From Thiotrichales bacterium (GTDB lineage: Bacteria; Pseudomonadota; Gammaproteobacteria; HK1), in contig JAPOSC010000051.1 in assembly GCA_026709935.1 (NCBI GenBank), positions 73,843 to 137,842 on the forward strand: a stretch of DNA of 64,000 bases. The letters are read 5' to 3'. The notes under the pieces were generated by a model that made no database searches, was not told the origin of the DNA, and was given only the letters and a program-made list of their open reading frames with translations. This document shows, piece by piece, positions 35,119 to 37,698 of the stretch; positions within the stretch are counted from its first letter, which is position 1; each line of letters begins with the position of its first letter. A program made the position numbers and the translations under genes.

Positions 35119-35730
35119 TCACCAGTCGAGGATCCCGGCGAGCGCATCGAGATCCTCCGGGCGGTCGATGTCCCGGCGCGCCTCCAGTTCCAGGACCCGC
35201 AGCCGTGCGGTGCGCGCGCACTCGCGCGTCTGGGCAAGTACGCGTTCCGTCCCCCAGTCCACCCGCGTGAACAGCTCCGGCCGCGGGCGTCCGACAGCGA
35301 CAAGCACGTACCCCCCATCGAGCGCCGGCACAATCACCACGTCCGCAATCGCGGAGCGCAGGGCGCTGGCGGCGCGGACGAGATCGTCCGGTTGGAGAAA
35401 CGGACAGTCGGTGCCGATGACCAAGGTCGCGCCCGGACGCGCCGCAATGGCGTCATGCATCCTCTGTCCCAGATCCGCCCCCACCTGTGCATGCAGCGCG
35501 ACCCCCGTGCGGTCGCGCAGCCCGCGAAAGTACGCGTGGCCGGTGTCGGGAGTGCACCACAGTTCCACCGGCCCGGTGCCGGCAGCGAGCGCCGTTTCGA
35601 CCGCACACCGGATCATGGCCCGATGCAGCGCTGCCGCCCGCTCCCCTCCGATGGCCGGAATCAGTCGGCGCTTGGTCTCTCCGGGCACCGGAGCGCGGGC
35701 CATCACCACGATCCGGCAGGCATCACTCAT
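35119..35730 (-). CDS. TIGR04282 / DUF2064 family transferase, rSAM/selenodomain-associated
   Basis: This 203-residue protein has a nucleotide-diphospho-sugar-transferase-like fold. Family blocks are RIVVMARAPVPGETKRRLIPAIG at the N-terminus, LYC-like VELWCTPDTGHAYF, LGQRMHDAI, VIGTDCPFLQPDDL and VPALDGGYVLVAVGRP, and the end is RRDIDRPEDLDAL. The family is named for its association with the radical SAM/selenodomain protein encoded two genes upstream. The substrate is unknown. The ATG at 35730 was preferred over an upstream start inside the inverted-repeat element. Its distance of 24 bases from that element means the element may supply its promoter or separate it from the operon. Confidence 0.88.
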   Translation of the reverse strand: MSDACRIVVMARAPVPGETKRRLIPAIGGERAAALHRAMIRCAVETALAAGTGPVELWCTPDTGHAYFRGLRDRTGVALHAQVGADLGQRMHDAIAARPGATLVIGTDCPFLQPDDLVRAASALRSAIADVVIVPALDGGYVLVAVGRPRPELFTRVDWGTERVLAQTRECARTARLRVLELEARRDIDRPEDLDALAGILDW

Positions 35731-35754
35731 CTGTTCAGCCGCCGCAAGCCTGGC

Positions 35755-35976
35755 CCGGAAATTTGATCGATTCACGGCTGTGGACGCGGATCTGACTGCT
35801 TTCGCCGCGTTGAACGCGGCATAGGTGTGGCTTGGGTGTTGCTCGGGGTGCTCGATGCCGCTTGCTTCGCAAGCTCGCTCCATACCTGCGGGTACGCCTG
35901 CGCGCCCCGTCTCGCGTTCGCCTTGCGCACACAGTCATCCACGCGCCCTCGCTTCGCGAATCGATGAAATTTCCGG
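35755..35976. mobile_element. 222-base element with 19-base terminal inverted repeats (MITE-like)
   Basis: CCGGAAATTTGATCGATTC at 35755-35773 is repeated inverted at 35958-35976 with one mismatch. The interior has more dyads, such as GCTTGCTTCGCAAGC near 35860. The right end touches the stop codon of the TIGR04283 gene and the left end lies 24 bases before the TIGR04282 gene. No clear target-site duplication or transposase frame was seen. It may be a non-autonomous transposable element or a large extragenic repeat. Confidence 0.6.
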
Positions 35977-35977
35977 T

Positions 35978-36697
35978 CTAGCGGTCCGACCGCCGAATGC
36001 GAGCGGCCGGAACGCCGCGATACAGACGCGCCAGATCGTCGGGGTCGGCGCCGAGCGTGTATCGCAACCTCAACCGCCACATGAGGGCGATGGTGCGGAC
36101 GATGCCGTTGCGTTCCCAGCGCCGGCTTGAGGTAACCACCACCGTGCGCACACAAGCGGGGCGGGAACGGGCGCGGAGCGCCCGGCTGAGCGCGATGTCC
36201 TCCATCAGCGCAATACCGGGAAAACCGCCGACCGCCTCGAACGCGGCGCGGGTCGCGAACATCGCCTGGTCACCGGTGGCGATGCCGCTCAGCCGGGAGC
36301 GCAGGTTCATCGCCCGCTCGACGACGCGCAGCATCGGGTGCGCGCCGTCAAGCCGCACGTCGAATCGGCCCCATTCACGGCCGCGGACTTCGAGAGCGTC
36401 CCGGACCATCGCGGGCCAGCCGGAAGGGAGCAACGTGTCGGCATGGAGAAACAGCAGCGCCCGCCCACCCGCGACCTCGGCTCCGGCGTTCATCTGGCGC
36501 GCACGACCGCACGGAGCCGAGAGGACGCGGTCGCTCAGGGCATGCGCCGCACGCGGCGTGCCGTCCCGGCTGCCACCGTCGACCACGATGATCTCCGCGG
36601 TGCGGCCGCGCGCGGACTGGAGCGGAGCAAGCGCACGCGGGAGCGTCGCCGCCTCGTCAAGCACGGGAACGATGACCGAGATCGCCGGCTGGTCCAC
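35978..36697 (-). CDS. TIGR04283 family glycosyltransferase-like transferase, rSAM/selenodomain-associated
   Basis: This 239-residue GT-A family transferase starts (V)DQPAISVIVPVLDEAATLPRALAPL. The metal/nucleotide-binding region reads EIIVVDGGSRDGTPRAA, then GRARQMNAGAEVAGGRALLFLHADTLLP, WGRFDVRLDG and GGFPGIALMEDIALSRALR, matching family TIGR04283. The acceptor is unknown. GTG 36697 is the first plausible start after the end of the radical SAM gene (stop at 36736) and lies directly before the conserved strand. The stop codon is immediately followed by the inverted-repeat element. Confidence 0.88.
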   Translation of the reverse strand: MDQPAISVIVPVLDEAATLPRALAPLQSARGRTAEIIVVDGGSRDGTPRAAHALSDRVLSAPCGRARQMNAGAEVAGGRALLFLHADTLLPSGWPAMVRDALEVRGREWGRFDVRLDGAHPMLRVVERAMNLRSRLSGIATGDQAMFATRAAFEAVGGFPGIALMEDIALSRALRARSRPACVRTVVVTSSRRWERNGIVRTIALMWRLRLRYTLGADPDDLARLYRGVPAARIRRSDR

Positions 36698-36735
36698 CGG
36701 AGCCGGATCGCAACGGACACCGCAGGTGGAAGCGG

Positions 36736-37698
36736 TCAGCTCAGCGCTCCCCCGCAACTGCTCCCCTGCCCCGCAGTACAGCCGAAACAGTGGTCGCGGA
36801 TGGCGATGGGTCGTCCCTCGACGTCGGCGCCGAGAAGGTCGGTGAGGTGGGTGCGCGGCGTGCCGTTCAACCGCATGGGCAGTCCGAGCATCTGGTTGAA
36901 GTCGCAATCGTAGGCATAGCCCTGCCAGTCGATGCTCACGGTGCTTCGGCACATGACGTGCTCGATGTTCGCGTCGACGTGGGCGGCCCGCAGCACATCG
37001 AGATAATCCTCGAACCGACCCTTGGAGATCAGCATGCTGCCGAACCGCCCGATCGGCATGTTGGCCAGCGTGAACAACCGATTGAACCGGATACCGTACC
37101 GACGACCGAGCGTCTCCTTGTAGGCACGCTCGAGTTCGGCCTGCGCGGGAGGCAGGGTGGGGCCCTGGGGGTTGAAGACGAGATCAAGAGAGAGAGCAGG
37201 ATCCTCGCCGCCGTAGCCGAGGGCGTTGAGCCGTCGCAACCCTTCGATGCTCGCGTCGAACACCCCCTTGCCGCGCTGCCGATCGACATTCTCATCGAGA
37301 TAGCAAGGCAGCGACGCGACGACCGCGACCCGCCGCTCCGCCAGGAATTCGGCGAGGTCTTCCTGTCCGGGCTCAAGGAGAATCGTGAGGTTGCAGCGAT
37401 CGATGACCCGGACCCCGTGCTCCACCGCCGCGTCGACCAGGAATCGGAAGCTCGGGTTCAACTCCGGTGCACCACCCGTGAGGTCGAGCACCGCGGCGCC
37501 CGACACCCTCATCAGGTCGACGACCTGACCCGCGGTACGGGCCGTCATTCGCTCGGGGCGCTTCGGTCCCGCGTTCACGTGGCAGTGCACGCAGGACTGA
37601 TTGCAGAGGTAGCCGAGGTTGACCTGCAGCGTGGTAAGCCGGCCCCGGCGTACCGGCGGGAAGGTCGTTTCGACCAACAATGGAAGAACATCGTGCAT
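36736..37698 (-). CDS. arsS: ArsS-like radical SAM/Cys-rich protein (TIGR04167 family)
   Basis: This 320-residue radical SAM enzyme has the cluster motif CNQSCVHCHVNAGPKRPE near residue 32, followed by DLTGGAPELNPSFR. The C-terminal region ends IAIRDHCFGCTAGQGSSCGGALS with the clustered cysteines of the family. Members are called ArsS when implicated in arsenosugar synthesis; the same family was named selenobiotic because some members use selenocysteine. The substrate here is not proven. The ATG at 37698 has GAGGTGA five bases upstream. Longer frames are rejected. It is first in a three-gene cluster with TIGR04283 and TIGR04282 transferases. Confidence 0.9.
   Translation of the reverse strand: MHDVLPLLVETTFPPVRRGRLTTLQVNLGYLCNQSCVHCHVNAGPKRPERMTARTAGQVVDLMRVSGAAVLDLTGGAPELNPSFRFLVDAAVEHGVRVIDRCNLTILLEPGQEDLAEFLAERRVAVVASLPCYLDENVDRQRGKGVFDASIEGLRRLNALGYGGEDPALSLDLVFNPQGPTLPPAQAELERAYKETLGRRYGIRFNRLFTLANMPIGRFGSMLISKGRFEDYLDVLRAAHVDANIEHVMCRSTVSIDWQGYAYDCDFNQMLGLPMRLNGTPRTHLTDLLGADVEGRPIAIRDHCFGCTAGQGSSCGGALS

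Follow-up and report, generated by a model that had tools for sequence, protein, structure and literature searches.

A lineage-restricted family of short inverted-repeat elements with 4-bp YYRR target sites in a Thiotrichales bacterium

Introduction

Two co-directional glycosyltransferase genes, TIGR04283 and TIGR04282, are separated by a spacer with inverted ends in the window analyzed here, which is the whole 64,000-nucleotide stretch of DNA from a Thiotrichales bacterium. This locus raises the question of what the spacer is and how it came to stand between the two genes. An initial annotation described it as a MITE-like, likely mobile or extragenic repeat that may separate the two genes or drive the downstream one. 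The reading favored here, at a probability of roughly three in four, is that the spacer belongs to a family of non-autonomous transposons (MITEs) that is confined to one lineage, duplicates a 4-bp YYRR target and relies on a DDE transposase acting in trans.

Anatomy and position of the element

Direct reading bears out the inverted ends of the initial annotation, 19 bases with 18 matching, around 222 bases. The left end begins at 35755 with CCGGAAATTTGATCGATTC, and the right end, reverse-complemented, is CCGGAAATTTCATCGATTC and stops at 35976. By our own arithmetic, fewer than 0.01 such pairs lying at most 300 bp apart are expected by chance in 64 kb. Alignment with other copies extends the element by one base on each side, to 35754–35977, and the outermost right-hand base is A in the window copy, where the family consensus has C. 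At 224 bp, the element is too short for a transposase and contains no coding gene. The interior dyads described earlier are also present. The features are as follows.

35754..35977, no strand: element read as a MITE copy; its 224 bp count the outermost base at each end (end reading, genome matches and copy alignment)
35754..35773, plus strand: left terminal inverted repeat CCCGGAAATTTGATCGATTC, family consensus CCCGGAAATTTCACCGATTC (alignment to copies)
35958..35977, minus strand: right terminal inverted repeat, ACCGGAAATTTCATCGATTC in minus-strand reading (alignment to copies)
35750..35753, no strand: left flank CTGG, presumed half of a 4-bp target-site duplication, equal to the other half at three of four positions
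35978..35981, no strand: right flank CTAG, the other presumed half, whose TAG serves in minus-strand reading as the TIGR04283 stop codon
35804..35820, no strand: interior dyad GCCGCGTTGAACGCGGC
35860..35874, no strand: interior dyad GCTTGCTTCGCAAGC, a hairpin module found also in other long copies
35978..36742, minus strand: upstream gene, TIGR04283 glycosyltransferase (stretch used, start provisional; the C-terminus runs on as VPAARIRRSDR to the stop at the element edge)
35119..35730, minus strand: downstream gene, TIGR04282 glycosyltransferase (frame open upstream into the element, with an ATG at 35883)

The earlier description of the element as exactly fitted between a stop codon and the next gene start holds on one side. 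It applies to the TIGR04283 stop, whose TAG lies inside the flanking CTAG, but not to the TIGR04282 start, where 23 bases lie between the element and the ATG at 35730. An N-terminal extension of TIGR04282 starting at the ATG at 35883 is possible, judging from the open frame.

The empty junction in relatives

TIGR04283 was matched in 16 of 19 genomes searched and 12 loci were inspected, the window's own genome being included in both counts. In nine relatives TIGR04282 adjoins TIGR04283, and the printed junction is without the element in all nine. The distance from the TIGR04283 stop to the first aligned TIGR04282 residue is 8 to 79 nt in these genomes, in contrast to the 247 nt that lie between the two genes in the window, a difference that supports the proposal that the element separates the pair. 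The nine relatives, sought as empty sites, are too diverged to reveal the exact pre-insertion target. Two further loci (L109 and L112) have TIGR04283 with no TIGR04282 within the stretch examined.

NCBIfam names TIGR04282 and TIGR04283 (window 35119–36742) arsenosugar biosynthesis glycosyltransferases. Counting the radical-SAM gene named in the initial annotation, the gene neighborhood may be an arsenosugar cluster.

Copies in the host genome

The element is one of many in its own genome (G000), a 3.78-Mb draft in 88 contigs. At least 55 blast matches at E ≤ 0.001 were obtained, with 40 of 116 first-look candidates scored, and the closest other copy among those scored is 86% identical over its full length. 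The end pattern with up to three mismatches has 67 matches in this genome, where the reversed-pattern control has none, and exact CCCGVAWWTYTCACC has 72 matches, again with none for the control. The element is therefore neither single-copy nor without similar elements in relatives.

The family consensus end, CCCGGAAATTTCACCGATTC, is based on 90 ends with up to four mismatches in the first 84 loci. The bases outside these 90 ends follow YYRR: C 47 and T 27 at −4, T 48 and C 27 at −3, A 45 and G 33 at −2, and G 49 and A 34 at −1. Among 44 paired copies, strict YYRR flanks are found on the left in 31 and on the right in 29.

The 44 paired copies range from 27 to 303 bp. The shortest consist of two abutting ends: L236 (27 bp), L234 (34 bp), six copies of 42–45 bp and ten of 51–55 bp. 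Longer copies carry additional modules, among them GTTCAACGCGGCGAAA, a stretch containing GTACGGAGCGAGCTTGCGAAGCAAGC, subterminal arms and the hairpin GCTTGCTTCGCAAGC. Composites contain a second end type, GCATTTCTCACC, which predominates in two genomes of the same genus, G002 and G004. The GCATTTCTCACC-ended repeat has an interior of its own and hybridizes with the window family, sometimes forming hairpin chains (L007 1–343, L072, L069, L071, L082, L054, L062 and L077). A short central tandem array, with units like CCCAAGCTACC or CCAGGCCACAC, is present in L007 and L009.

Among near-complete copies that have the end type of the window element, the best mutual matches are 86–90%, and a 96% match over 129 bp between L054 and L007 is read as lying in the second-type module; recent movement is thus without support. 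In a survey of the flanks of 37 copies, taking the best codon-scoring gene by a home-made codon score, a stop codon lies exactly at the element edge, in a gene running toward the element, in 7 of 74 flanks. Such stops would follow from a target of YTAG or YTGA.

Target-site duplication and matched arms

The flanks on the two sides of a copy resemble each other over 4 bp. Across 38 pairs, 80 of 152 flanking positions are identical, against 63.7–63.8 when partners are permuted (p = 0.002), and seven pairs are exact, against 1.6 (p = 0.0001–0.0004). An enlarged set of 44 pairs has 93 of 176 identical positions against 75 permuted and seven exact pairs against 1.9 (p about 0.002). The seven copies added for the larger set were picked by eye for a visible second end among 32 ends in 29 loci, and the composite L242, visible among these candidates, was left out. 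The L077 pair (scores 11 and 8) belongs to the 38-pair set and lies outside the 44-pair set, the 37-copy survey and the arm and copy-similarity sets. Copies of at most 65 bp taken alone (n = 20) have 47 of 80 identical positions against 36.5 (p = 0.006; exact pairs, p = 0.058), and those above 65 bp taken alone give p = 0.08 on identity and 0.015 on exact pairs.

Other duplication lengths give little. In the 38-pair permutation, lengths of 3, 5, 6, 9 and 10 have no signal, length 2 gives two exact pairs (p = 0.04), and for lengths 7 and 8 the identity test is borderline (p = 0.03 and 0.05) and no pair is exact. The flanks do not extend the inverted repeat, as reverse-complement agreement is 56 against 65.5 expected (p = 0.96). 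The window copy itself, with CTGG and CTAG, is identical at three of four positions. The dispersed copies are insertions with 4-bp target duplications and form a MITE family. The mobile, MITE-like nature claimed in the initial annotation is accordingly supported by copy number, by nine empty relatives and by a duplication that is significant at the level of the family.

The two arms also match better within a copy than between copies. In columns 4–9, 227 of 264 comparisons agree against 212.1 expected (p = 0.0006), and the effect extends to columns 4–14 (p = 0.012) and 1–14 (p = 0.008). This co-variation fits matched-end subfamilies, quasi-palindrome repair or a hairpin constraint.

Range among other genomes

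At E ≤ 0.001, the 222-bp query matches three genomes of the same genus (G002, G003 and G004) and one of the same family (G006). With up to 14 candidates scored in each genome, the 50 others give no match. A further genome of the same genus, G001, has no match by either the 222-bp query or the exact end pattern. Exact end matches elsewhere in the bacterial family number four in G005, two in G007 and one in G009, and outside it one each in G017 and G023. Sister genomes have the interior in common, but bounded by other ends.

A collection of species genomes, from which the window's own genome may be absent, contains the strict end in two contigs of one MAG (JAJDUQ, Gammaproteobacteria, jk18x1bzbins.85). 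In a class-wide draw of 369 genomes, CCCGGAAATYTCACCRA occurs 24 times in the window's own genome but in none of the 368 others, of which only three are from the same bacterial family; G003 and G015, which have related copies, lie outside the draw. The CCCGGAAATYTCACCRA end is present in G015, which represents another genus of the family. There, L255 (C130, 1505–1773) is a 269-bp element with CCCGGAAATCTCACC ends, CTAG on both sides and nested interior hairpins. A viral origin was considered and rejected, with viral contigs giving zero exact hits to the end.

Search for a partner transposase

An autonomous partner with the same ends is usual for a MITE but not required. No transposase with matching ends, as sought in the initial annotation's proposed check, was found in the four families searched. 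For Y1_Tnp the search covered the own genome, for DDE_Tnp_1_4 and DDE_Tnp_1 six genomes, and for IS1634 55 genomes, with the loci of at most 30 matches read per search. The own genome has a single Y1 transposase, which contains two in-frame TGA stops and has no copy of the element next to it within 3.4 kb of sequence read, one DDE_Tnp_1 fragment and zero DDE_Tnp_1_4 matches. Its single IS1634 match scores 25.8 bits, under the cut-off of 100. A broken IS200-like transposase lies near an IS4-type transposase fragment in the same genome (L085, C5).

Across 60 and a further 17 transposase loci, matches to the MITE end with up to three mismatches are chance-like, apart from L292, in the IS1634 group, and the MITE-like L255. 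At position 915 of L182 (G003) there is a weak look-alike of the end, for which a second end was not found. The IS1380-like and IS4/IS5-like groups were rejected as partners, having unrelated ends (8 of 15 positions for the IS1380-like end against the window's end type).

The best lead, although short of proof, comes from sequence comparison with the IS1634 elements of sister genomes. G002 and G004 encode transposases of 615–625 amino acids within elements whose ends are CCCATCTTTACCAC; one such transposase scores 294.8 bits against NCBIfam IS1634 (cut-off 100), and the others are above the cut-off in the profile search. Like those of the MITE, these ends open with CCC and contain a TTT..CACC core. 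They match the second end type, CCCGCATTTCTCACC, at 10 and 9 of 15 positions and the window's end type at 8 and 7, no better than the IS1380-like end does. An IS1634 element in G015 (CCCGAAGTTCCC, flanks TTAG and CTAG) gives 10 and 9 of 15 against the second type and 7–8 against the window's. Of the four groups of IS1634 elements in the comparison, two show no match, at 3–6 of 15. A match of at least 10 of 15 has a chance of 0.0036 per end, or 0.047 over 13 ends.

The IS1634 lead rests equally on the ends and on the flanks. Identical 4-bp YTAR flanks, resembling those of the MITE, surround 9 of 11 IS1634 copies in G002 and G004 (CTAG in four, TTAA in two, and TTAG or CTAA in three). All nine G002 copies examined (L205, L207, L274–L277 and L281–L283) have them, and the two G004 copies are identical at three and two of four positions. 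Differences from the MITE are the low agreement with the window's end type, the 5–6 bp, AT-rich duplications that one published account gives for IS1634 (PMC2266710), and the want of any IS1634 transposase above the cut-off in the MITE host itself. A narrow full-text search of the open-licence literature found no MITEs tied to IS1634.

Alternative explanations and known repeats

The family resembles several described repeats. Correia/NEMIS, RUP and ERIC elements are likewise short, gene-free, multi-copy sequences with inverted ends, target duplication and a stem-loop fold. Termini of 5′-TA, which one source lists for most described bacterial MITE families (PMC2229807), are typical of the Correia, ERIC and RUP kind, whereas the window family has YYRR|CCCG ends. 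It also differs from described MITEs in its spread of sizes, from 27 to 303 bp within a single genome, and in its variable internal modules. The family is new but of a known kind, and it is unusual in the lower part of its size range (27–54 bp) and in the co-variation of arms within copies. A literature search for MITEs in sponge symbionts found none.

Another candidate source is an IS5-family (IS427-type) element instead of IS1634. In favor of it, CTAG lies at most two bases from both edges of two IS5-type elements, in G003 and G004. Their ends, GGCGTGTTAACGC and GGGCGTGTTCACAC, agree with those of the MITE at no more than 4–6 of 15 positions (4 for the G003 element), however, and are unrelated. 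A possible link is L223 (G000 C10:10313; 1510–1670), where a family end with a CTAG flank is followed by a decayed piece of an IS5-type transposase gene, with 93% identity over 61 bp to its G003 counterpart. This junction may be a chance neighbor, and no Pfam transposase family covers the fragment; in a plasmid search with the L223 piece, the best 20 of 180 matches cover the transposase-like part only. Derivation from IS5 is unlikely on balance. We give somewhat less credit to a REP/BIME-like palindrome spread by RAYT or TIRYT acting on single-stranded hairpins, in which long copies would be chains of hairpins. The very short palindromic copies (27–54 bp) and the composites favor this reading, as does the likeness of arms within a copy, which a hairpin substrate would demand. 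One source also records that GTAG REPs frequently supply the stop codon of flanking ORFs and that long TIRs flank some RAYT genes (PMC3733652), which parallels the stop codons seen here. Against this, YYRR flanks the element at either end and is duplicated in a share of copies, with no one-sided GTAG or CGTC tag, and the only Y1 transposase of the host is broken and unaccompanied by any copy within the 3.4 kb examined.

The least probable reading, and a very improbable one, is that the spacer is a functional RNA or DNA structure, such as an attenuator, mRNA stabilizer or terminator, that selection maintains between the two genes. Folding of both element strands does beat all 200 of 200 shuffles (z −4.9 and −5.5), and arms are matched across the family. 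The same junction is nevertheless empty in nine relatives, and copies occupy dozens of other sites. An Rfam scan of the window returned four tRNAs only, with no family in the element, and a simple consensus scan of the element detected no promoter- or terminator-like site, so the earlier suggestion that it may drive the downstream gene is unsupported.

Proposed route of insertion

For the favored MITE reading, a presumed DDE-type transposase acting in trans would recognize the ends (CCCGGAAATTTCACCGATTC) and join the element into a YYRR target, mostly CTGA, CTAG, TCAG or CTGG, which would be duplicated over 4 bp. The window copy would have landed at the TIGR04283 stop codon, between the two co-directional genes, pushing the pair from adjacent to 247 nt apart. 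We infer that the partner was an IS1634-type element, since lost from the own genome or unassembled in it, and that most copies are no longer mobile. Internal hairpin modules were probably gained or lost by slippage or by deletion between palindromes.

An odd spacer would then become a mobile insertion that splits a gene pair adjacent in nine relatives. YTAG and YTGA targets can hold a stop codon, so that some insertions would land exactly at gene ends. Copies of 27–54 bp look short for a DDE synapse. If truly transposed, they probe the minimum size of a transposon. A bolder proposal, which we consider improbable, is that these short palindromes, with their 4-bp duplications and matched arms, are among the shortest known transposing units and move as folded hairpins by a hitherto unrecognized mechanism, intermediate between DDE transposition and single-strand insertion of the REP type.
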